Assembly (NCBI GenBank): GCA_018396915.1
Contig: JAGTRD010000015.1
Span: 1-40,203, forward strand
Length of the DNA: 40,203 bases
Direction: 5' to 3'
DNA from: Candidatus Bathyarchaeota archaeon
GTDB lineage: Archaea > Thermoproteota > Bathyarchaeia > 40CM-2-53-6 > RBG-13-38-9
How positions within the stretch are numbered: position 1 is the first letter of the stretch; each line of letters begins with the position of its first letter. Position numbers and translations under genes: made by a program. This document shows, in pieces, positions 27,403 through 38,837 of this stretch. A model generated the notes under the pieces. It saw only the letters and a program-made list of their open reading frames with translations. It did no database searches and had not been told where the DNA came from.

Positions 27403-27482
27403 AGGTGAAGTTGAACATCTTGCAATCACGAAGCTTACTGATGGCGTCAAGCATAAATATTAATAGAGGAGCGTGAGGTGGG

Positions 27483-28409
27483 TTGACCCACTCCCCGATC
27501 GCAGGCATGAGCGAAATAACACATGAAGACTATGTTAAATTCATGGAGAAATGTAGAGAAGTTACGATAGGAAACGTGAAGGTGAAGCTTCATGGCGATT
27601 GGCGTATCTTGAGTTTCTCTCCTCCAAATGAATATATGCTTGAGCGTGAGACTGTTTGGAGTTTTCCAGATAGGGGGAGTTGGGCAACCCATATCGGCGA
27701 TTACAGGGGGAACTGGTCACCCTACATTCCTCGAAATCTGATATTGAAATATACTGTTAGGGGAGAATGGGTTCTAGACCAGATGGTTGGTAGTGGAACG
27801 ACCCTCGTCGAGTGTAAGCTGCTTGGAAGGAACGCTATTGGGGTCGATTTAAATCATGGCGCGATCATGGTTGCAAGAGACAGACTCAACTTCCGCTACG
27901 ACAAAGAAGATGAAGGCTATTTTGAGCCTACTATTAAGACATATGTCGGTGACGCCAGAAACTTGGACAAGATAAGTGATGAGAGCGTAGACCTGATAGC
28001 CACCCATCCACCTTACGCCAAGATAATCCCATACACAAAGAGCAAGGTTGAAGGAGACCTCTCAAACCTCCCCCTCCCCCGATACCTTGAGGAGATTCGT
28101 AGAGTAGCAGACGAATCCATGAGGGTTCTCAAAAGGGGTAGGTACTGCGCTATATTAATAGGCGATACTAGGGAGCGTAGACACTATGTTCCTATGTCTT
28201 TTATGGTAATGCAGCAGTTCCTTGACGCAGGTTTCATTCTTAAGGAAGATATTGTTAAAAGGCAATGGAAAACGAAGACCACGAGGGAGAGATGGAGGGG
28301 TAAAGATTATGACTTTTATCTTATCGCTCATGAACATCTATTCGTCTTTAGGAAACCTGGTGAAGATGAGGAATTCAAAAAATTTAAGTATAGCGTAAAG
28401 TGGTGGTGA
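27483..28409 (+). CDS. Solitary DNA N4/N6 methyltransferase
   Basis: This 300-odd-residue class I methyltransferase has the order motif I then motif IV. VLDQMVGSGTTLVECKLLG binds SAM, IGVDLNHGAI follows, and THPPYAKIIPY is the catalytic (D/N/S)PPY variant. It matches archaeal 'DNA methylase' proteins that modify N4 of cytosine or N6 of adenine. No restriction endonuclease or specificity subunit is nearby, so a regulatory or orphan role is more likely than restriction. The start is TTG 27483 or ATG 27507; a TATA-like AAATATTA near 27457-27464 would put the mRNA start close to 27483. Confidence 0.82.
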   Translation: MTHSPIAGMSEITHEDYVKFMEKCREVTIGNVKVKLHGDWRILSFSPPNEYMLERETVWSFPDRGSWATHIGDYRGNWSPYIPRNLILKYTVRGEWVLDQMVGSGTTLVECKLLGRNAIGVDLNHGAIMVARDRLNFRYDKEDEGYFEPTIKTYVGDARNLDKISDESVDLIATHPPYAKIIPYTKSKVEGDLSNLPLPRYLEEIRRVADESMRVLKRGRYCAILIGDTRERRHYVPMSFMVMQQFLDAGFILKEDIVKRQWKTKTTRERWRGKDYDFYLIAHEHLFVFRKPGEDEEFKKFKYSVKWW

Positions 28410-28453
28410 AAGCCTGTGCATATTTTACAAGTCAAACATTATCCATAAATATC

Positions 28454-28472
28454 ATCTACATGTTAAGTAGAT
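28454..28472. promoter_or_regulatory. Inverted repeat before the HEPN-MNT operon
   Basis: ATCTAC-atgttaa-GTAGAT is a perfect 6-bp inverted repeat just downstream of a TATA-like ATAAATAT (28446-28453). It is a candidate operator for the TA operon starting at 28502. Confidence 0.45.
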
Positions 28473-28501
28473 TACTGTAGGCCGGCATTCGGAGATTTTC
28501 T

Positions 28502-28915
28502 ATGCTAGATGAAGATGAGTACGAGAGGTGGATGAGGGCCTCGAAGGAGGCTTTGATCTCAGCAAAGGGTGACTTGGAGAGGGGAGACTACAACTGGACC
28601 TGCTTCAAGGCACAGCAGGCTGCAGAGTTTGCAGCAAAGGCTCTTCTCCATGGTTTGGGCTTACCAGCCTACGGACATAGCTTATCGAAGCTTCTGGAAG
28701 CGGCTCCTAAAGAGTTTGGTTTTCAACAGGTCGAAAGGCAGGCCAAGACCCTCGACAAGTATTATGTTCCTACAAGGTATCCTAACGCCTGGGTTGAAGG
28801 TACCCCAAAGGACTACTATACAAGAGAGGACGGCGAAGAAGCCTTAAGGTGTGCGGAGGATATTGCCTGTTGGGTTGAGGCCTCATGGAGGTCATTGAGA
28901 AGAGGAGGGAATTGA
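28502..28915 (+). CDS. HEPN-domain protein (toxin of a HEPN-MNT pair)
   Basis: This 137-aa all-helical HEPN protein has ASKEALISAKGDLERGDYNW, FKAQQAAEFAAKALLHGLG, YGHSLSKLLEAA and YYVPTRYPNAWVEG, the COG2250 pattern. HEPN proteins are RNases or substrates of AMPylation when paired with a minimal nucleotidyltransferase. The MNT gene follows with a 31-nt overlap, so both are made together. All HEPN helices are present and it seems intact. Confidence 0.9.
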   Translation: MLDEDEYERWMRASKEALISAKGDLERGDYNWTCFKAQQAAEFAAKALLHGLGLPAYGHSLSKLLEAAPKEFGFQQVERQAKTLDKYYVPTRYPNAWVEGTPKDYYTREDGEEALRCAEDIACWVEASWRSLRRGGN

Positions 28916-29250
28916 GAAGAAGAGTTATTGATACTGCGTCGAGATGGGTTACAGGTCTTCATTACAAAGTTACAGCGGTTCTCATAGGATCCTATGCTAG
29001 GGGAGACTTCAACCTTTGGAGTGACGTGGACCTTCTGGTGGTGTCCTCAGAATTTGAGGGTGGGCCCGTTGAAAGGCTCAAGAAACTGCAGATACCGGTT
29101 GGATTCCAAGTTATACCCTTAACCACTGAAGAGTTCAATAGACTCCTAGCTAGAGGCGACAGGTTAGCCCTTGAAGCCCTCAACTCAGGAGTAGTATTGA
29201 GGGACGACCTAAAAATATTAAGAAGAGGAGGTGAGGCCCTTCAAGGGTGA
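28885..29250 (+). CDS. Minimal nucleotidyltransferase (MNT antitoxin)
   Basis: This 121-aa protein has the polymerase-beta-type motif GSYARGDFNLWSDVDLLVV, with GS and DxD metal ligands, and ends in a helix (GDRLALEALNSGVVLRDD). MNT antitoxins can inactivate the HEPN partner by AMPylation, as shown for the HepT-MntA pair. Its ATG lies inside the HEPN gene. The frame is complete, unlike the two other MNT loci in the window. Confidence 0.9.
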   Translation: MEVIEKRRELRRRVIDTASRWVTGLHYKVTAVLIGSYARGDFNLWSDVDLLVVSSEFEGGPVERLKKLQIPVGFQVIPLTTEEFNRLLARGDRLALEALNSGVVLRDDLKILRRGGEALQG

Positions 29251-29311
29251 AATAAAGCCTAGGAGTAATTCTAGGAACTCAGGCGAGTATCTCGCCAACA
29301 TTATTCAAAAA

Positions 29312-30007
29312 TCAAATTTTTGAAAGAACATTTGAATACTTATTCATCCTCAACATTCTTCCCTCAGGCTGAACAAGCCAAGTCATCCAGCAGAGCTCTA
29401 TCGGCCTGTATCCGCAGGCTAAAGCAACCTCCTCAGCCTTCTTTATGAACTCCATATCGTCTTCTACCGGTTTGTATCCCGCCTTGACCAAAATTTCATT
29501 TACTACCCTCTTAACTATCTTATCAGGCATAACTGTATCGACGCCCCCCATCATCCTCAAATACTGGAAAGTAACCAGTCCGACACCTTTAATCCTACCA
29601 ACAGGGTTCTCCCTCCACCTCTCCAAGCTGGCTCCTTTAGCCCAAACCCTAAGAGATGTCTTGTCGTCTCCACTCAGGGTCGATAAGTAGGATGCAACAG
29701 CCTTCGCCATACTCCATGATCTTTTATTCCTCCATACATTCATTAAAGGGTCGATATCTGACCCGGCAAGGTCTCTAAGACACCTTATTTCCCCAGTTTG
29801 AACAAACATCCTGCTAAACTCTTCAACCTTCGGAACGACTGCTGTGAAATAGTTCAAACCTATCGACGTAAAAGCCGCATCCACAACCATCAGAACTACA
29901 TGTCCTCCCCACCTCTCTGTTCTCAAGCACCTATCGCAATGCTGCTCCAACCCAGAAACCTTAGACATATACTCGTCAACTACTCTCTTCAACATACGCA
30001 TATCCAC
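29312..30007 (-). CDS. HhH-GPD-like protein, possible DNA glycosylase relative
   Basis: This 231-aa, mostly helical protein has a helix-hairpin-helix segment near residues 135-170: NPVGRIKGVGLVTFQYLRMM, then GVDTVMPDKIVKRVVNEIL. That recalls the HhH-GPD pattern (G-x-G, then a conserved Asp) of base-excision glycosylases. I see no iron-sulphur cysteine cluster at the C-terminus; the cysteines near residues 24-27 (CDRC) are at the other end. Substrate and activity are unknown. It is convergent with the HEPN-MNT operon. Confidence 0.55.
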   Translation of the reverse strand: MDMRMLKRVVDEYMSKVSGLEQHCDRCLRTERWGGHVVLMVVDAAFTSIGLNYFTAVVPKVEEFSRMFVQTGEIRCLRDLAGSDIDPLMNVWRNKRSWSMAKAVASYLSTLSGDDKTSLRVWAKGASLERWRENPVGRIKGVGLVTFQYLRMMGGVDTVMPDKIVKRVVNEILVKAGYKPVEDDMEFIKKAEEVALACGYRPIELCWMTWLVQPEGRMLRMNKYSNVLSKI

Positions 30008-30144
30008 TCTTATGGCGGCACATATCTAGAAACGTCGCCAAACTTAGTCTTCATAAGAGAAGGATAAATAGTTGTACATAAAAGAGTAATAACGAAGATA
30101 GCCTCCAGCCTTCGTATCTTAATTGCTGAATGTATGAATCATTC

Positions 30145-30470
30145 TTAGTAAGCATTTCTATTTTGTAACATTTTTAAATTTTGCTCTTTGAGCTCAGGAA
30201 GTTTCCTTTTAATAGTCTCCTAGACTATTCCAAATTTACACCAAAATATTTTTGGATCAGCTTATTTCTCATATCGGCAATATCTTTCCATGGGATTTTA
30301 CGGTTCTTCAACCTTAACTCTTTACTTAAATTTTTTGTCTCGCCGGTTATTTCAAGCGTCCTCAATACAGCATATTGTTTCTCCACATTCTCAAAGAACA
30401 CTATCTTAGTCAACCCCTCAGTAAATTTTTCTATCTTAATTATCTCGTCTAAGATATGCTTCAAATACAC
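30145..30470 (-). pseudogene. Decayed HepT-type HEPN toxin
   Basis: GTG 30470 starts YLKHILDEIIKIEKFTEG, a HepT (DUF86) N-terminus, and continues to DMRNKLIQKYFGVNLE and a stop at 30225. In HepT the RNase motif is RNxxxH; here the His is Gln. The next part survives one base out of frame as V-stop-ETIKRKLPELKEQN, where the stop replaces the usual Trp of the family. So there is one catalytic change, one frameshift and one nonsense mutation. The partner MNT at 30461-30767 is broken as well. Confidence 0.72.
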
Positions 30471-30767
30471 TCTATCTTTTTTTCATAAATAACAAGCATC
30501 TCTTTTTATACTCTTTATTATATATGGATTGATAGAGCTGAAGATCCCCAGATCAACCTTTCTCCTAAATAATTATCTTAACTCATTTCCCGTTCTGACT
30601 AGGTCCAGAAGATTCTTTCCACTATTTTTATTAAATTCGACTGCTATGTCGATATCGCTTTTTCTATTCTGCTCTCCTCTGACAAAAGATCCGAAGAGAG
30701 CCATAAAAGCTATGTCATTCTTATTACAAAATTTGAAAAGTCTCTTCCTTAGATCTTTCTTTCTCAA
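30461..30767 (-). pseudogene. Decayed MNT nucleotidyltransferase
   Basis: TTG 30767 starts RKKDLRKRLFKFCNKND, and the active-site motif GSFVRGEQNRKSDIDIAV is intact. A TAA at 30573 stops it after GNELR. The same frame then continues LFRRKVDLGIFSSINPYIIK, and the last part (EMLVIYEKKIECI) is in another frame and overlaps the HepT start. With the stop and shift repaired it would be a normal MntA-like antitoxin. The whole HepT-MNT module is dead. The flanking 30771-31029 holds nothing I recognise. Confidence 0.7.
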
Positions 30768-31029
30768 TCCTCTAGGTAAATTTTCTATTTTTATATTTAT
30801 TCTGTGTTAAGTGGAGCATCCGTGAATTTAAGCTTTTTCTAACCTAAGAATTACACATTTAATCTCGTGGACTTATGAACTATTAAGTGAACAATTGATA
30901 TTTAATGTTCTACGTGGTAATGCAGATACATATGCCGGCCTATTGTATGATGTATCTTAATCTGGATAAGGAAGAATCGTGTATAGTAAAGGTGGGGTAA
31001 TGCGTGTTTAGAAACCCGCTAAAAAATGT

Positions 31030-31882
31030 TTAAGGTAAGAGGGCCATTATGGAGAGGGCGGTAGTCTCTATGTTTGCAACGCCGTCAGGTTCAAGGTCTT
31101 TTCTTCTGTCAGTAACCCAGCCACCGGATTCATCCTGCCATCTCAAGAGGTTCCTCTGAACATTTTCTAAGGTCGTTTTGTCATCCATTCGTTTTGCAAG
31201 TATGCCAAAGAGAGCTACCTTGTAGACTGGATAGAGTTTTCTCTTATAGTCAGCCTTATCCATTTTGAGAACGCCTCTTGAGAAGTCGTACCGAGAATAT
31301 ATTTTCCTCCATAGTTTATCAGAATAGTCTTTACGTCCTTTTTCCAACCAGTACAATGATAATAGTGCAATCTCATCATTGTAATTTGAGTCTGTCTGAT
31401 TTGCCAGATAGAAGTTCTTCACATCGCCTTCCAGTATGCAGAACCTATCATTGGCTTTATGCCTCCTCCGCCTCGGATCATTATCTGGTTCCCCTAATGG
31501 ATGTTTACTCCTAATAGCCTCCGCACGATCATGTCTTCCAAGTTTCTTGAACATTACTGATAAGAGGTATTGACTCTGATTATAGACTCTATGTTCGGAA
31601 TGATTCTGTTCTGCAACCTCGAAATACTCAGAACCTGCATTATCAACCCGAAGCGAGTCGATAAAAAGTAATGCCCTTTCAATAGCAGGAGTAAAATCTA
31701 TACTGTACAATAGACCTCACAACAGTTGCATACATAGGCATTCGATTGCCAATAAACTTTCTGGAAGAGTGTTCAAGAAACAATATGGTGTTTAATATGC
31801 TAATCTGAGTAGGCCTTGCTCGAATAGATCTCACGTAAGATGTGATCGCAGGATCTAGCTGAAACTGATATTGATCTAGCAA
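31030..31882 (-). pseudogene. Alpha-toroid (prenyltransferase/squalene-oxidase-repeat-like) protein, frameshifted
   Basis: The long part (31030-31710) is helical and ends LLRWQDESGGWVTDRRKDLE with ETTALSIMALL, the QxxxGGW-type repeat of terpenoid-cyclase-like toroids. Just upstream, a 67-codon frame (31679-31882: LLDQYQFQLDPAITSYVRSI, then YATVVRSI) overlaps it, and the joined protein reads naturally as one N-terminus. I infer a single gene of about 285 codons with a shift near 31700-31710. It could also be two overlapping genes. Function is unknown; the family covers cyclases and surface glycan enzymes. Confidence 0.45.
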
Positions 31883-31970
31883 TGACTTTATATTTGTAAG
31901 TGGATGCGCCGTGAGTATGCGGGAATGAATCTAGGTGTACCTTGATGAGGTTTTGATATATCGGATTATA

Positions 31971-32009
31971 TATTGATATATTTATATACTATGCGATGAT
32001 ATATCAATA
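31971..32009. promoter_or_regulatory. vapBC operator: perfect 11-bp inverted repeat around the TATA box
   Basis: TATTGATATAT (31971-31981) and ATATATCAATA (31999-32009) are exact reverse complements with centres 28 bp apart, enclosing TTTATATA. A further half-site, TTGATATATC, lies at 31953-31962. AGGTGAT, the Shine-Dalgarno sequence of vapB, follows directly. The layout matches the unrelated operator sequence at 26652-26689. Confidence 0.65.
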
Positions 32010-32020
32010 TAGGTGATGGT

Positions 32021-32230
32021 TTGAGCAAAGTTACGACTGTGAGAGTTTCAAAAGACACGTTAGAATTGCTAGAACGTTTAAAGAGAAAATTCAAAGTCGA
32101 AAGCCTTGACGAAACTATACAGACTCTTATCAGGCAGCAGCGTAAGACATTGATCGATAAGTCTTTTGGCTTGGATAAGGGGCGAATGAAGTCTTTCACC
32201 GAGGAGGATCGTGGTGAAGATCGTAGTTGA
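32021..32230 (+). CDS. vapB: VapB-type RHH antitoxin
   Basis: TTG 32021, with GGTGAT just upstream, starts the 69-aa SKVTTVRVSKDTLELLERLK, then ESLDETIQTLIRQ, a ribbon-helix-helix domain. The tail SFTEEDRGEDRS is acidic. Its EEDRGE codons contain GGAGG and the GTG start of the toxin, which overlaps by 17 nt. The operator at 31971-32009 predicts autoregulation. Confidence 0.86.
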   Translation: MSKVTTVRVSKDTLELLERLKRKFKVESLDETIQTLIRQQRKTLIDKSFGLDKGRMKSFTEEDRGEDRS

Positions 32231-32621
32231 TGCGTATGCTTGGATTGAGATTTTTATTGGAAGTGAGAAGGGAGAGAAAGCGAGAGAACACATTGAAAAA
32301 GCAAGTGAAGTTTATACACCAGACACAGTGCTTGCAGAGATAGCGCGAAAGTATCTGAGGGAGGGAGCTGACCAGAGGGATGCCGAAGAAAGGCTTAGAA
32401 TGATCGTAGAGGTCTCAAATATTGCTCCAATAGATGTTGAAGTCGCTTTGGAAGCGGCGAAATCTTATATGAAACTCTCAGATGAAGCAAGAAAGGCTGG
32501 GATGAAAGCTCCAAGCCTTTTTGATGCCATAGTGCTTGGAACAGCCAAATCTCTCAATGCAAAAATTCTGACAGGTGACGAACACTTCAAGAACCTGCAA
32601 GAAACACTCTGGATAAGATGA
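32214..32621 (+). CDS. vapC: VapC-type PIN toxin
   Basis: This 135-aa PIN ribonuclease has KIVVDAYAWIEIFIGSEKG (D6), VLAEIARKYLREG, APSLFDAIVLGTA and ILTGDEHFKNL. Of the adjacent GTG codons at 32211 and 32214, I prefer 32214, which is 6 nt after GGAGG and matches the normal VapC N-terminus. All catalytic residues are present. It resembles the toxin at 14164-14526. Confidence 0.9.
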   Translation: MKIVVDAYAWIEIFIGSEKGEKAREHIEKASEVYTPDTVLAEIARKYLREGADQRDAEERLRMIVEVSNIAPIDVEVALEAAKSYMKLSDEARKAGMKAPSLFDAIVLGTAKSLNAKILTGDEHFKNLQETLWIR

Positions 32622-32690
32622 CTTTGAGATTATAAGTATGCCAAATCGCTCCTCGCCATTTTGAAGAGATAACTAACCTCATATAAAGTC

Positions 32691-32697
32691 TTTTTTT
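32691..32697 (+). terminator. Possible T-run terminator after vapBC
   Basis: TTTTTTT follows the vapC stop by about 70 nt, with no other gene between. Archaeal RNA polymerase stops at such T-runs. There is no hairpin. Confidence 0.3.
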
Positions 32698-32872
32698 AAC
32701 TTAAATAAAATGCATGAAAAGAATTACATATTGGGAGAAGACCATAAAAATTGGTGGCGGCGTCAGTATTAAGTCTCTTTGGGTTAAAACATAAGTCTCT
32801 CTAACACATTGCAATCTATAAGAGTGAAAGCTGTTACTGTTTAGGTGCATTTTAAGGTTGGGAAAGGGCATA

Positions 32873-33035
32873 TTGACGGAAGAAAAGGTAAATCTTGCGA
32901 TAGGTATGACCGACACATGTGTGAATGTCTGTGTTGAATCACTGAAGATGAGGTCCAAGAATAGATGAGGAGGAGCTACTGGAGAAGATCAGAGAAAGAA
33001 TAATGTATAATAGACGCAGAAGATGTGAGATTTAG
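32873..33035 (+). pseudogene. Frameshifted partner gene of an AbiEii-like protein
   Basis: TTG 32873 starts TEEKVNLAIGMTDTCVNVCV, ending at a stop near 32967. One base out, RIDEEELLEKIRERIMYNRR follows and ends at TAG 33033-33035. This pattern (start EEKVxxAIxMTDxCV, end EEELLEKIRERI) is what precedes AbiEii-like nucleotidyltransferases in archaea, to my recollection. The family name is not known to me. The next gene's GTG at 33025 overlaps its end. Confidence 0.45.
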
Positions 33036-33219
33036 GGACGGCACTTTCGAGGGACTTATCATAAGAGTGGTCGACGCTTTCAACTTTTCAATATTAGGTT
33101 ACATGATTACTGGAGCCCTAGCCGCAAGCTATTACGATGTTTCACGCACAACAATGTTGTGTAGAGATCATACTGGGCATGCAGGCAAAAATCCGCTATC
33201 AAGCCAAGAATACTATTGA
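33025..33219 (+). pseudogene. Truncated AbiEii/DUF6036-like nucleotidyltransferase
   Basis: GTG 33025 starts RFRDGTFEGLIIRVVDAFNF, then LGYMITGALAASYYDVSRTT, the N-terminus of an AbiEii-type nucleotidyltransferase (the G-G/A-LAAxxxGxxRxT region). The DxD that should follow is lost at a frameshift, and the gene stops where the convergent tspO ends. Only a fragment is left. With 32873-33035 it forms a dead two-gene TA-like locus. Confidence 0.55.
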
Positions 33220-33654
33220 GAGGTTTATGGCTCCTGCAATGGACACCCATACCAAATATGGAATTAGAAGATAAGCCGCTATCTTCGACCTCTTCCATGA
33301 CAAAAATATTAAAGCCAATATTGTTAACCATAATATAGTGATCTCTATAAAAGCCCATGCTGGACTCTTGAATCCGAAGAATATGAGGCTCCATAGAAAG
33401 TTCAAGGCCAGATTCAACCCGTAAACAGTGAAGAAACTTCTACGTTCAGGTTGAAAGTACATGAGCCCCCCTGAGAGTCCTATGAGTAAAAAGAGGATGT
33501 TCCATATGATGGCAATGACCCAGCCAGGAGGTGTGAAGAAAGGTTTACGTAGACCTTGATACCAGGGTCCTGTGTCTGTGAATATGCCGCCGGATAAGCC
33601 TATCAAGTAGACGAGGGCTATGAAAACTGCGAAGACTAAGATTTTCCTAGACAT
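33199..33654 (-). CDS. tspO: TspO/MBR family membrane protein
   Basis: This 151-aa protein has five hydrophobic segments. The TspO signature is WYQGLRKPFFTPPGWVIAII, then LALNFLWSLIFFGFKSPAWA and LLIPYLVWVSIAGAINLSI. TspO proteins bind porphyrins and other hydrophobic ligands and are linked to stress and tetrapyrrole handling; archaeal roles are not established. It is slightly short for the family but has all blocks. It seems to be transcribed alone, divergent from the KaiC-like operon. Confidence 0.93.
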   Translation of the reverse strand: MSRKILVFAVFIALVYLIGLSGGIFTDTGPWYQGLRKPFFTPPGWVIAIIWNILFLLIGLSGGLMYFQPERRSFFTVYGLNLALNFLWSLIFFGFKSPAWAFIEITILWLTILALIFLSWKRSKIAAYLLIPYLVWVSIAGAINLSIVFLA

Positions 33655-33836
33655 AGGCCACCCAACGCATAGTTATAGAATCAAGCATAGCATATATATA
33701 GTTATGGAGGTACTGCGAGAAAATTTTTAGTTACGTTTCTTGGGCGATAGCCGCTCTCAGAGATGTAGGGGCTCAATTTTCGATTCAAAAAGGATGTTTA
33801 TATAGAGTTTTGGTCATTACTTAAGTGGGCGCTTGC

Positions 33837-35268
33837 ATGTCTGAGTGCATCTCCTCTGGAGACGAAGGTTTAGATGAGGTTACTGGAGGTGGCTTTCCCA
33901 GAGGTAGCTTAATCCTGCTTGCAGGAAATCCAGGTACCGGAAAGACGGTCTTCTCGACACAGTTTCTTGTTAAGGGTGCTGAATCTGATGAACCTGGTGT
34001 CTACGTATCTTTCGCTGAAGATAAGAGTCTCCTAGTAAAGAATATTTTCTAAACATTTAAGGTGTGACCTTAAACTTCTTGAGGATGAAGGCAAGATCAA
34101 GATACTGGATTTTGTTGCTGTGAAGGACACAGGCGTCTCAGCGGCTCTAGACTTGATTTTGCGTGAAGTTAAAAATATCAAAGCCAAACGTCTGGTCGTA
34201 GACTCTTTCACAGCTATGGCTCAGGCGTTTAAGGAACCTATAGATGTTAGAGTGGTCGTTCACACAGTATTGAATAGGATAGTTCGCCAGATGGGCTGCA
34301 CCTCAATCATTATTGAGGAGGTTCCGTTCGGTGAGTCTAAGATAGGTTTAGGTGTAGAGGAGTTCGTGGCTGATAGTGTGTTATTGTTGAGCACGTGTGA
34401 AGTAGACGTTCTTCCGCTGAGAGAGTTGAAGCTTGTAAAGATTAGGGGAACCAGGTTGCCTCAGCGGAAACTTATCTATACGCTCGAAGGTGGCTTCAGA
34501 GCCTTCCCCCCATTCAAGCCTAAAACGGTTATGGAGCCTAAGAGATTCCATCCGATCCCCGACCCTCCTGAAAAATACTCTACTGGCTCCAGTGATTTAG
34601 ATGAAATCCTTGGCGGCGGAGTGTCTAAAGGTTCCCTCATGCTCTTAACTTTAGATGAGAAGGTTACTACGCTTCAATATCATTTGCTTATTGACCCTAT
34701 GGCAACCAACTTTGTTCTTCAAGGAAGAGGGTTGATAGATATCCCATCTTGTGGAGTAGACCCATTTATGTTCCGCAAATATTTCTACACATATGGTGGG
34801 ACAGAGAAAGACTTCAATCGTTACGTTAGAATAATTGAAGCCAGGAGCATGTCAGAGCCTAAACCTCTGCCGAACTTAATCACTTTGGACGGTAAGGATT
34901 GGAGGGAGGATTTAGAAAAAGTCTTCAAGACTGGCAACCAGCTTAGAATGGAGACTGGTCATTCGATTCTATCCATTGTGGGCGTAGACAACATCATAAC
35001 TACATATGGCGAGGAGCATTGTGAAGAGATCCTGAATCTAACCGCTACAGGGGCGAGGAGGGTTGATGCAGCCGTCGTAGCAATCTTCAGAGGTGGCCGC
35101 AAGGAATTGTCCAAGATAATCAGCTCGATTGCTGATGTACACTTCCACCTAACAAAGGAAAACGGCTGCTTACTTCTCAATCATATTAAGCCTGGACATG
35201 CCTTATACATAGTTGAGATGGATGTCTTGAAAGGCTACCCAACACCCAAACTTACGCCAATGGTCTGA
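33837..35268 (+). pseudogene. Two-domain KaiC-like RecA-superfamily ATPase with one frameshift
   Basis: ATG 33837 (or GTG 33825, behind TATA-like TTTATATA) starts SECISSGDEGLDEVTGGGFP, then Walker A GNPGTGKT. The frame ends at TAA 34050-34052, after LVKNIF. Shifting one base at the TTTT run (about 34044-34048) restores SKHLRCDLKLLEDEGKIKIL and the rest of the first KaiC domain (LVVDSFTAMAQ as Walker B). A second KaiC-like domain (STGSSDLDEILGGGVSKGSL) has no P-loop, reading LTLDEKVTT instead. Such proteins are signalling ATPases in archaea. Downstream NitrOD5 and MEDS genes suggest one sensory operon. Whether the shift is real or an error is open. Confidence 0.78.
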
Positions 35269-35284
35269 TGGAGGAATAGCTAAT

Positions 35285-35631
35285 TTGATTAAAGAGATCC
35301 ATGCAGCAGGGAGGGGAGAAGATTAAAGGATAAGTTCAGAAGGGCTCTCTCTGAAGCTATTGATGATGGTCTCCTAGTTCTAGGCGAGACTGTTAGGGAG
35401 GCATTGTACTCCCATGTTGAGAGGAATCACCATATTAAACGTGAAGATCTTCCTGAGAATCTTGAAATTCTTCACAATATTCTGAAGGGTATATTAGGCG
35501 CTGGGGTAATGGTTCTTGAGAGGGTCATCGCCAAAAATCTATATGAGAGATTAAACCTGAACTTTGTAGACCATGAAGACTGGGCACTGATCGATTACGT
35601 TAAGGATGCTGAACAACTCACTGGTGGCTAA
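35285..35631 (+). pseudogene. NitrOD5-domain protein, apparent frameshift near the N-terminus
   Basis: The frame 35404-35631 carries the NitrOD5 helical domain: LYSHVERNHHIKREDLPENL, ILHNILKGILGAGVMVLERV and LYERLNLNF. Its coding sequence clearly continues upstream (LKDKFRRALSEAIDDG, then LLVLGETVREA) without any start codon. TTG 35285, with GGAGGAA before it, starts IKEIHAAGRGE in another frame. A single shift near 35320-35328 (GATTAAAGG) joins both. NitrOD5 is an output or accessory domain named from Nitrososphaera. It lies between the KaiC-like ATPase and MEDS genes in one operon. Confidence 0.65.
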
Positions 35632-35638
35632 TTGAGGA

Positions 35639-36211
35639 ATGGATGTGAATGATATTTTAGAGTTTGTTAAGAATATGAGGGTCAAGGAACATGCTATCGT
35701 CTTCTATTCAAGACATGAAGATAAACATAAGATTCTACTAAATTTCGTCAAGGCTGGTTTGGATCGTGGTGAGTCTGTAGGATATGCTGCCGGCGGTGAG
35801 CCTCCCGAAAGCTTAAGGGAGGCTATGAGAAAGTTCGGTATAGCTGTCGAACGTTACGAGAGTAGCGGCTGCCTAAAAATTATGAGTGAAATACATATTA
35901 AAGATGGGGTGGCTGAGCCTTCGGAGATCATAAGCCGCTGGAGGATGCTCTACAATGAGGCTGCGGAGATGGGTCTCAAAGGCTTGAGGGCGACTGGCGA
36001 GACAGATCACTTCTTCTACAAAAACCTCGTCAAGGAACTTATCGAGGAAGCCCTGCATAGGGGACTCGACTTCCCAATGACCTCCCTATGTGGATACAAT
36101 GCAGAGATTGTGGCCAAGCATGATAGAGGCCAACTTTACCTTGACCTCATCAGAGCCCATAGAACAGTTATCTTCATAGGTCCGGAGGGTGGTTTGATAA
36201 AGAGAATCTAA
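35639..36211 (+). CDS. MEDS-domain sensory protein
   Basis: This 190-aa protein matches the MEDS (DcmR-type sensory) domain: EHAIVFYSRHEDKHKILLNF, GLDRGESVGYAAGG, SRWRMLYNEAAEMGLKGLRA and TSLCGYNAEIV. These KaiC-related domains sense hydrocarbon derivatives in methanogens and methylotrophs; the ligand here is unknown. There is no output domain on the chain, so signalling would pass through the NitrOD5 or KaiC-like partners. Its ATG is 7 nt after the NitrOD5 stop. The 275-base gap on the right (36212-36486) shows no feature. Confidence 0.82.
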   Translation: MDVNDILEFVKNMRVKEHAIVFYSRHEDKHKILLNFVKAGLDRGESVGYAAGGEPPESLREAMRKFGIAVERYESSGCLKIMSEIHIKDGVAEPSEIISRWRMLYNEAAEMGLKGLRATGETDHFFYKNLVKELIEEALHRGLDFPMTSLCGYNAEIVAKHDRGQLYLDLIRAHRTVIFIGPEGGLIKRI

Positions 36212-36486
36212 AAAAAGTCTTGCCTCAAAAATTTGTTGCCTATTACCTATAGGTATAATATCATTTCTTTCAATTTACTTTCAAAAACTGAAGTCTGTTT
36301 TAGGATATATACTGTAAGACCATAAAATCTCCGTTTTGTCCTATACTTCTTGTCATGGCAAAATAGCACATCCTCATTATGGTTTCAAGTAGCTGGGAAT
36401 AAATGTTGATGGTAGGTGTTATCTATTGGCAGGATCCAGTTTGATCCCATTATGTAGACTAGCTGGATTATTCAATGAAGGCGATG

Positions 36487-37266
36487 TTATGATACTAACT
36501 CCTGCATTCTCCTCTTCGCCATCTGGTATCCGAAGTCGAAGTATTTGATGAAGTCTGCTACGAACTCGTTTGCTGGATGGTTGTATATGTTCTCTGGTGT
36601 ATCAACCTGCTCTATACCTCCCCTATTCATGACCGCCATCCTGTCTGCTAGGGCCATCGCCTCAACTAGATTGTGGGTGACATAGACCGTCGTCGTCTCA
36701 AGCTCTCTATGCAGCTTCCTGATCTCGTCTGAAACTTTGATTCTGCTCTGAGGGTCTAGGTTACTCAGAGGCTCGTCCATCAACAGTATCTTGGGTGGTA
36801 TGAGTATGGATCTTCCTACTGCGACCTTCTGCTGCTGGCCTGCTGAAAGTTCTCCAGGCTTCCTAGGGTATAGACTCCTCTCTATTCCAACCTGTTCACT
36901 GACATTCTCAACTATCTTCTTGATCTTTGGTGTTACGTATTTTCTGAGTTTGAGGGCGAAGCTGAGGTTTGAATACTTCTTCTCATCGAAGACCTTCATA
37001 TGTGGGAATAGGGCGTAGCTCTGGAAGACCATGTTCACACCCCTCCTCACAGGCGGAAGGTCGTTGACGAGGGTGCCGTCAATATATATGCTTCCACTGT
37101 CAGGCTTCAACAGGCCTGCGATAAGTTTTAGGAGGGTTGTCTTGCCGCATCCGCTTGGACCTACGACGACGAAGAATTCGCCATGCGGAATGAAGAGGTT
37201 GAGGCTGTCAACTGCAATAACATCGCCAAACCTCTTTGTGATGTCCACCAAGATCAGACTAGCCAT
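36487..37266 (-). CDS. ABC transporter ATPase (MalK/PotA type) without TOBE domain
   Basis: This 259-aa ABC ATPase has Walker A GPSGCGKTT, Q-loop VFQSYALFP, signature LSAGQQQKVAVGRS (A for the usual G), Walker B ILLMDEPLSNLD and switch VYVTHN. The sequence is closest to sugar or polyamine importers, but it stops about 100 residues before the usual TOBE domain. There is an unusual insertion at VFDEKKYSNLSFALKL. No permease or binding protein is in the window, so it must work with distant genes, or be the surviving part of an operon. Confidence 0.88.
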   Translation of the reverse strand: MASLILVDITKRFGDVIAVDSLNLFIPHGEFFVVVGPSGCGKTTLLKLIAGLLKPDSGSIYIDGTLVNDLPPVRRGVNMVFQSYALFPHMKVFDEKKYSNLSFALKLRKYVTPKIKKIVENVSEQVGIERSLYPRKPGELSAGQQQKVAVGRSILIPPKILLMDEPLSNLDPQSRIKVSDEIRKLHRELETTTVYVTHNLVEAMALADRMAVMNRGGIEQVDTPENIYNHPANEFVADFIKYFDFGYQMAKRRMQELVS

Positions 37267-37348
37267 AACTAACTACAATAATTCTTATCAATCAAATATT
37301 TAGGTTTATGAGAAGAGATAACGTAATGGAATTTTGGACATTCCGCAT

Positions 37349-37747
37349 TCAGATGTTTCTTCTTTGAATCTCTTTCACTCTATCGAAGTGTTCGTCGGTT
37401 GAGACTATTACCTCAGCTTTCTCCAACAACGAGGATGCGGCGTGGATGGAGTCTATGGGGTCCAATCGATACTGCGTCATAAGTTCTAACGCCAACGATA
37501 ATATGTCTCCATTTACATCCACAAGCTCTAGGCGGGGCATCTTCAGGAAAGCCTGTCCAGCAGAGACCGCATCTTCAAAATTCCTATACTTCCTAACCGC
37601 CCAGACGAGCTCATCGAAAGTTAGCGCCGATGTTGAAGCACGTAGCTTGCCCTCCTGCGTCTCTTTAAGGAGAAGTCGAGCTCGATCTCCAACCTCCTCC
37701 TGATTCAGGGCTGCGTATATGAAGACATTTGCGTCGAGGTAAAGCAT
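37349..37747 (-). CDS. vapC: PIN toxin of an AbrB-PIN pair
   Basis: This 132-aa PIN ribonuclease has LYLDANVFIYAALNQEEVG (D5), ALTFDELVWAVRKY, LDPIDSIHAASSL and IVSTDEHFDRVKEI, with all four acids present. The start ATG 37747 is 1 nt after the antitoxin stop; the ORF start at 37768 would add the antitoxin's shifted tail. GAAAGGG lies upstream. The toxin pairs with an AbrB-fold antitoxin. Confidence 0.9.
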   Translation of the reverse strand: MLYLDANVFIYAALNQEEVGDRARLLLKETQEGKLRASTSALTFDELVWAVRKYRNFEDAVSAGQAFLKMPRLELVDVNGDILSLALELMTQYRLDPIDSIHAASSLLEKAEVIVSTDEHFDRVKEIQRRNI

Positions 37748-37748
37748 T

Positions 37749-37994
37749 TTAACCGACCCTTTCCACAAGCTCCTCTTCGTATAGGTGTGTTGGAATCTGC
37801 TTGACAGAGGGGCCTCCCTTCGCTATTCTCTCGAATATGGACACGACGTCGATATCCAGTTTCTGCAGAACTACTCTGTCACCCTCGAGTCTGAAGATAA
37901 CCTTCGACCCTGGATGAATCTTGAGGGCTTTACGAAAAGCTTTAGGAATTACTACTTGGCCTTTTGGTCCGACTCTCATTTCCTCTTCGATCAT
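37749..37994 (-). CDS. vapB: AbrB/MazE-fold antitoxin
   Basis: This 81-aa protein starts IEEEMRVGPKGQVVIPKAFR, then KIHPGSKVIFRLEGDRVVLQ, the AbrB swapped hairpin. Its tail (GPSVKQIPTHLYEEELVERV) should bind the toxin. A TATA-like GTTATAC centred near 38021 sits about 27 nt before ATG 37994, so the mRNA is probably leaderless, as for the AbrB gene at 3166-3423. Confidence 0.88.
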   Translation of the reverse strand: MIEEEMRVGPKGQVVIPKAFRKALKIHPGSKVIFRLEGDRVVLQKLDIDVVSIFERIAKGGPSVKQIPTHLYEEELVERVG

Positions 37995-38208
37995 GTATTA
38001 CCACAAGTTAGAAAAATGTATAACCTAAATTTATACTTTAACCTCACTAAAACCTCATGTACCAGCAGGCGTTATGTGAACTTTTTTATTTTCTATGGTT
38101 TAACTGTTAGGACGCTTTAACCTTGATATGGTAAGCATAACTTCCCTCAAGACGGCATATGTTCGATAATATTTGTTTACATTTTGAAAACGTTATGTTT
38201 ATCATTAT

Positions 38209-38225
38209 GTTTACATTATGTAAAC
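38209..38225. promoter_or_regulatory. 17-bp palindrome directly before vapB
   Basis: GTTTACAT-T-ATGTAAAC is a perfect palindrome ending 2 nt before ATG 38228. A weaker copy (GTTTACATTTTGAAAAC) is at 38175-38191, about 34 bp upstream, and ATGTTTATC lies between. They form a tandem operator candidate for the downstream vapBC. Confidence 0.6.
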
Positions 38226-38227
38226 TT

Positions 38228-38449
38228 ATGTCAGTAATAAGCATAAGAGTTGACAGAAAGATTAAGGAGCTTTTAGAGAAGGCAGGGGTCGATGTATCGA
38301 GGGAGGTTAAACAATTTCTTCAGGAATTAGCTTGGAGGGTGGAGTTGAAGGAGAGGTTGAAGGAGTTGGATGAGCGATTAAGCAAGATCCCCGAAGCCCC
38401 TCTAGGATTCTCATCAGAGAGTGTGAGGGAAGACCGTGAAAGTCATTGA
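38228..38449 (+). CDS. vapB: VapB-type RHH antitoxin
   Basis: This 73-aa protein starts SVISIRVDRKIKELLEKAGV, then SREVKQFLQELAWRVELKER, and ends SVREDRESH. It is a sister of the VapB at 15099-15323. The REDRE tail codons contain GAGGGAAG and the toxin GTG start; the overlap is 14 nt. The ORF can start earlier (38159), but ATG 38228 gives the normal VapB N-terminus, and the upstream part is palindromic promoter DNA. Confidence 0.85.
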   Translation: MSVISIRVDRKIKELLEKAGVDVSREVKQFLQELAWRVELKERLKELDERLSKIPEAPLGFSSESVREDRESH

Positions 38450-38837
38450 CTCTTCGGCCCTATCAAAGTATGTGAATAGAGAGGCCAACTGGAAAGAAGT
38501 TAGAAAACATCTTGAGGAAGGATGCATGACACTGGATCTTGCCATTAAAGAAGTTGGAAACAGTATATGGAAACGTGTTTCAAGGGGCGAGTTGGATCCA
38601 GACACAGCAATGTCACTCTTCAAAGACCTCGTCATACTCAAACCTTTCAAAACAGCAAGCCAAGAAGATCTTCTAGATGTTAAAGCTCTGGAAACAGCTA
38701 TTCGTCAAGGCATAACCATCTACGATGCCCTATTTATACAGTTTTCAAAAGAACTCAACCTTCCACTTTTAACGTCGGATAAGAGACAGGCTGAGGCTTC
38801 GCAAAAAACAGGTGTGGAAACAACATATGTAGAATAG
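38436..38837 (+). CDS. vapC: VapC-type PIN toxin
   Basis: GTG 38436 starts a 133-aa PIN ribonuclease: KVIDSSALSKYVNREANW (D5), AIKEVGNSIWKRV, TIYDALFIQFSKE and LLTSDKRQAEA. All acids are present. Its GTG falls within the antitoxin's Arg-Glu codons. A 150-base gap follows, then the tRNA-Leu on the other strand. Confidence 0.9.
   Translation: MKVIDSSALSKYVNREANWKEVRKHLEEGCMTLDLAIKEVGNSIWKRVSRGELDPDTAMSLFKDLVILKPFKTASQEDLLDVKALETAIRQGITIYDALFIQFSKELNLPLLTSDKRQAEASQKTGVETTYVE

Follow-up and report, generated by a model that had tools for sequence, protein, structure and literature searches.

A probably decayed copy of an archaeal KaiC–NitrOD5-like module, followed by a MEDS gene, in a Bathyarchaeota genome

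Three genes lie in tight series on the forward strand of a Candidatus Bathyarchaeota contig, at positions 33837-36211: a KaiC-like gene, a small gene for a helical NitrOD5-like protein and a MEDS gene, as a preliminary description of this DNA had set them out. The stretch analysed here (the window) is the whole of contig C15, 40,203 nucleotides long, from an assembly of 1.63 Mb in 42 contigs. We read the three genes as a copy of the KaiC–death-domain-like module predicted between 2016 and 2018, with MEDS as an added putative sensor, and the operon in the window as a copy that has probably decayed recently, its KaiC gene being divided by a change of frame and its NitrOD5-like gene carrying TTA at the conserved start position. 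Of this module, a two-domain ATPase with a NitrOD5-like adaptor, the organism would possess several copies, the one in the window having a MEDS sensor gene as a third member.

Upstream of the KaiC-like gene we read in the sequence a TATA-box-like element, TTTATATA (33797-33804, forward strand), 33-40 bases 5' of the ATG. Judging by its position, it is likely to be an archaeal promoter, giving a transcript with a short leader or none. The gene itself is read in two frames, which bears out the frame change that had been proposed near 34046. The first piece (33837-34049) contains the start of domain 1 with the Walker A motif GNPGTGKT and an FAE motif, and the second (34045-35268, with its own HMM match from 34045 to 35265) contains the remaining part of domain 1, including Walker B, and the entire domain 2. 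The change amounts to one base at a run of T (34045-34050), with an in-frame stop at 34050-34052, and it separates the P-loop from the rest of the gene; beyond this single lesion the frame is open to 35265. The two pieces match PF06745 with 79.9 and 80.2 bits (Pfam cut-off 26.6), which, together with the Walker A motif of domain 1, places the protein in the KaiC superfamily, and the first piece is 83% identical to an intact paralogue on contig C19 of the same genome (G000:C19).

An alignment of 24 rows (the window gene and 23 relatives) was used to follow the motifs across the family; two of the 25 loci, L038 and L046, were dropped from it, and the genome search finds both of these as uninterrupted frames, 479 and 473 residues long. 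At the site of the lesion the frame is open in the aligned relatives, paralogues from the same genome included. The first P-loop (GxPGTGKT or near it) is kept and the second is absent in all 24 sequences, none of which has GK[ST] at the position of the degenerate P-loop of domain 2 (GGGVSKGSLMLLTLDEKVTTLQY, 34609-34680 in the window, forward strand). The earlier statement that the second domain has lost its P-loop is therefore right about the absence and wrong in making it an event of this gene, since the absence is family-wide. The glutamate pair of domain 1 has a catalytic role in KaiC. Throughout the 24 sequences its second member is kept, and in place of the first stands A, V, T, G, N, S or L, never E. 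As the pair reads xE, the alignment suggests that the ATPase of this family is slow or absent, a condition that we liken to that of ArlH, which, according to PMC8978795, binds ATP without hydrolysis.

Two known proteins offer themselves for comparison. The window family shares with cyanobacterial KaiC the double KaiC domain and, in domain 1, a P-loop and Walker B, but it differs in the missing first glutamate of domain 1 and in having no P-loop in domain 2 (24 of 24 in both respects), so that the two ATP-binding domains of the clock protein are not found here; nor did we notice a KaiA or KaiB gene next to it. The other is GvpD, a haloarchaeal gas vesicle regulator: the model GvpD_bR2 matches the start of the second KaiC domain above its cut-off of 27.9, both in the second piece of the window gene (29.9 bits) and in the intact paralogue L057 (48.3). 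Gas-vesicle genes were not noticed in the vicinity. The P-loop model, however, scores 21.2 in the broken window piece, under its cut-off of 24, whereas L057 is above the cut-off in both models.

The NitrOD5-like gene (35323-35631, forward strand) is separated from the KaiC-like gene by 61 bases, counted from match to match. A single-base shift had been postulated near 35325, and we reject it: the frame is open without interruption from 35293, and homology to the relatives (GRRLKDKF vs GGRRLDEF) continues through 35325. The gene lacks a start codon instead: the conserved start position is occupied by TTA (35323-35325) in the window and by TTG in L061, L062, L065, L069, L071 and L073. A Shine-Dalgarno-like run, GGGAGGGGAG, can be read in the sequence at 35309-35318 (forward strand), and similar purine-rich runs precede the start in the relatives. 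The next in-frame ATG, GTG or TTG is at 35404, within the domain. Because L072 also has no usual start codon at the conserved position, the family may admit unusual starts.

Whether this protein should be called NitrOD5 depends on the level at which one looks. Pfam returns no match to PF11537, or to any other family, for the window protein at E≤10; no PF11537 match is found in the same genome at E≤0.1, and none of 61 genomes has one above the cut-off of 27 bits, the relatives remaining below it. The AlphaFold2 model (pLDDT 94.4) has one clear match in the PDB, PH0832 of Pyrococcus horikoshii (2p9x; Foldseek E 0.0065, TM 0.76/0.78), on which it superimposes with Z 12.4 and an rmsd of 2.3 over 97 residues, the next row standing at Z 5.3. 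PH0832 belongs to PF11537 NitrOD5 by its own sequence (112 bits), and the profile A1 of the helical family matches it weakly (E 0.0019). Since the model matches a member of PF11537, the name used in the preliminary description holds at the level of the fold and by this weak profile match, but not by the Pfam cut-off; the window protein shares the fold of PH0832 and differs from it in having no Pfam match. A second comparison with the PDB singled out no death-domain protein proper; pyrin domains appeared in it just twice, with Z scores of 4.0 and 3.4, which is within noise.

The MEDS gene (35639-36211, forward strand) follows after 7 bases and is intact, as had been stated, with 78 bits to PF14417 (cut-off 29.8), which makes it a member of that family. 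MEDS is the sensory domain of DcmR, and the family is predicted to sense small organic ligands. The window protein resembles MEDS of DcmR in its match to PF14417 and in its KaiC-like fold, and differs from it in that the chain has no output domain, a NitrOD5-like gene lying beside it here and being fused to MEDS elsewhere. In its AlphaFold2 model (pLDDT 84.7) some 170 of the 190 residues align with KaiC, FlaH and other ATPases of that kind, with a best Z of 16.8, so that by its predicted structure MEDS is a pseudo-KaiC, with the complete KaiC fold and no P-loop. At five other loci (L099, L102, L121, L123 and L124) MEDS is fused C-terminally to other N-terminal domains, which we take to resemble DNA-binding domains; MEDS may accordingly serve several outputs besides NitrOD5.

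That the KaiC copy has really decayed seems likely to us. Two adjacent genes carry lesions of different kinds, a one-base frame change in the first and a TTA start in the second, and the sister species G001, the one species with which synteny was compared, has the flanks without the operon: around it the window is syntenic with G001 from 27476 to 38036 at approximately 80-96% identity, but the block from 33592 to 36131 is gone (L093, G001:C70), save 44 bases of MEDS (35687-35730) that are joined to its 3' end. The gene beside the block, presumably TspO-like, is truncated in G001.

It is rather unlikely, in our judgement, that the KaiC lesion is instead a sequencing or assembly error at the T run of a metagenome-assembled genome, with the operon in working order and the NitrOD5-like gene starting unusually. 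Such an error would account for a sole KaiC lesion of one base at a homopolymer, for a frame that is otherwise open and for KaiC motifs that are intact, and the trees lean the same way, three of the four placing the window branch near the median. The terminal branches measure 0.278 for domain 1 (median 0.278), 0.431 for domain 2 (0.388), 0.402 for the NitrOD5-like protein (0.445) and 0.482 for the full KaiC (0.344), so that in all but the tree of the full KaiC a broken gene has no clearly longer branch than its intact counterparts. Since the branches are close to intact ones and the KaiC frame is otherwise open, either the decay is recent or the lesion is a sequence error. Besides the second lesion and the loss of the block from G001, the quality of the assembly argues against error. 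Over 65 kb of contig C1, which is 94% identical to G001, 58 ORFs were matched, and 53 of them have their full length in the genome studied here (G000). Among the remaining five, one is broken on the side of G001, two face a well-conserved stretch from which substitutions set them apart, and two short ORFs (106 and 80 residues) show a one-base difference that may lie on either side; no clear frameshift on the side of G000 is seen in a long ORF among these five. Single-base errors are thus uncommon in this assembly, and real, recent decay remains our preferred reading.

We also considered how the broken copy came about. We rejected the idea that assembly had wrongly joined two paralogues at this point, as DNA identity to the C19 paralogue declines gradually across the gene, without a break at the lesion. 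Exchange between KaiC paralogues is possible on sequence grounds and was considered because the nearest relative of domain 1 is L057, of the same genome, and those of domain 2 are L061 and L062; for the NitrOD5-like gene the nearest relative is again L057. Broken copies of the family occur at other places too, with the damage at other sites: a two-domain paralogue in G011:C25 (L081/L148) is broken into three frames, from which we conclude that copies have been lost elsewhere in the order as well, and G135:C3, G434:C19 and G215:C19 contain stops. Away from the operon, several small gene pairs lie in the window at 28502-29250, 30225-30767, 32021-32621, 37349-37994 and 38159-38837, and we assume from their appearance that they resemble toxin-antitoxin pairs; two of these ORFs, 30225-30470 and 30573-30767, have longer counterparts in G001.

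The pairing of KaiC with a NitrOD5-like gene is widespread. Among 61 genomes searched, 21 hold the 36 two-domain KaiC genes, counted as near-full-length matches to both domains with partial matches and a distant subfamily at 25-30% identity left out, and 24 of these 36 are followed on the same strand by a NitrOD5-like gene, which begins 21-106 bases past the match, so that the pair is present in 18 of the 21 genomes. The organism itself has three further two-domain KaiC copies. Two of them, on C19 and C2, are intact and have a NitrOD5-like gene downstream; the third is on C1. In a phylum-wide sample the KaiC family is found in 43 of 398 genomes at E≤1e-90, and the pair is adjacent in 14 of the 29 best loci, some of which repeat places from the count of 36 genes; there are further cases with the helical gene upstream. 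At the loci L215, L216 and L218 (G190, G195 and G191) two-domain KaiC genes stand in tandem.

The complete trio is much rarer. It had been proposed to check its conservation, with rare co-occurrence named as a result that would refute the interpretation, and the three genes prove to be seldom contiguous: among the 61 genomes they are so in this genome and, in fused form, in G059 only, with a cluster in another order (MEDS–NitrOD5–NitrOD5–KaiC) in G022. This last locus (L125, G022:C39:11000-20500) carries MEDS, two NitrOD5-like genes and a KaiC of 528 residues on one strand. In G014 MEDS and the pair are about 10 kb apart, and in G004 MEDS has other genes as neighbours. Such scarcity and such placements are what one would expect if MEDS were an unrelated neighbour that happens to follow the KaiC–NitrOD5 pair, which we nevertheless hold to be improbable given the 7-base gap on the same strand, the cluster of G022 and the fusions. 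MEDS occurs in 59 of 256 genomes of the class at E≤1e-12, and in at least nine of these 59 it shares one open frame with a NitrOD5-like domain, in both domain orders: NitrOD5–MEDS in G059 and MEDS–NitrOD5 in G076, G077, G081, G086, G162, G163, G200 and G215, the match in G215 being weak (domain E 2e-4). Nine is a lower bound because not every MEDS place was read; a scan of 91 stretches of genome contigs for MEDS gave no relative. Eight of the nine fusion genomes also have a KaiC match at E≤1e-20, the exception at this threshold being G163, and in at least five (G059, G076, G162, G200 and G215) a KaiC gene has an adjacent NitrOD5-like gene. Because the pair recurs and the fusions are found in nine genomes, a modular pathway of MEDS, NitrOD5 and KaiC, as first suggested from the window alone, is a sound reading.

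Of the alternatives considered, we give least credence to programmed translational frameshifting that would join the KaiC pieces and control the output of the operon; it is highly improbable and we reject it. The T run with a stop just behind the frame change would suit it, but the aligned relatives, own-genome paralogues included, have no frame change at the site and the supposed second shift at 35325 is no shift.

Part of this system has been anticipated. A KaiC-like ATPase (arCOG01174) whose gene is paired with that of an alpha-helical protein (arCOG03758) was predicted as a system by Makarova, Koonin and Albers (2016, PMC4858521), who describe the helical partner as showing a distant similarity to DEATH domains of eukaryotes and as a possible replacement of KaiB. 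Our pair is likened to theirs by adjacency, a KaiC-like gene with a small all-helical gene as proposed second component, which is what 24 of the 36 KaiC genes display. It differs in its surroundings, which in that paper are type IV pilus loci and here are varied neighbourhoods (ORF maps read by eye), and in the MEDS gene that follows in the window. In the available part of PMC5847659, NitrOD2, NitrOD4 and NitrOD5 are placed in a 'Death domain-like' family, MEDS is listed as an inactivated KaiC, and MEDS-REC and REC-NitrOD5 architectures are given, with no MEDS–NitrOD5 architecture in that part; a 2017 mBio paper may already list the fusion. To call the pathway not yet described was therefore too strong. 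Our search of the literature on NitrOD5, MEDS and the KaiC proteins of Archaea and Bathyarchaea showed no description of the trio among the papers listed.

Taken as a whole, a module in which an ATP-loaded KaiC ring with a P-loop-free second tier is served by a NitrOD5-like adaptor and a MEDS input seems to us on balance probable; each single step carries less confidence than the whole. KaiC of an intact copy would form rings that bind ATP in domain 1, and domain 2, having no P-loop, would offer a docking surface. The NitrOD5-like protein would dock on the ring, read it out or plug it, and pass the signal on. MEDS, with its KaiC fold and no binding of ATP, would sense a small molecule and contact the ring through the NitrOD5-like domain, covalently where the two are fused. 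The MEDS protein of the window may perhaps still work with the intact KaiC–NitrOD5 pairs on C19 and C2.

A broader idea, which we put forward as doubtful, is that MEDS–NitrOD5 is a general plug, by which a ligand-sensing pseudo-KaiC joins archaeal KaiC rings via a death-fold-like adaptor. If that were true, chemical sensing in Archaea would be wired into KaiC without histidine kinases, and the split trio and the fused forms would be two states of one device. It has been proposed that archaeal signalling has its main hubs in KaiC-like ATPases, whose partners are mostly guessed; the recurrent pairs and the MEDS–NitrOD5-like fusions give this a concrete and testable wiring of sensor, adaptor and ATPase. 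The copy in the window is mainly an example of the decay of such a module, and it is the fused relatives which show that the helical partner goes with the MEDS sensor.
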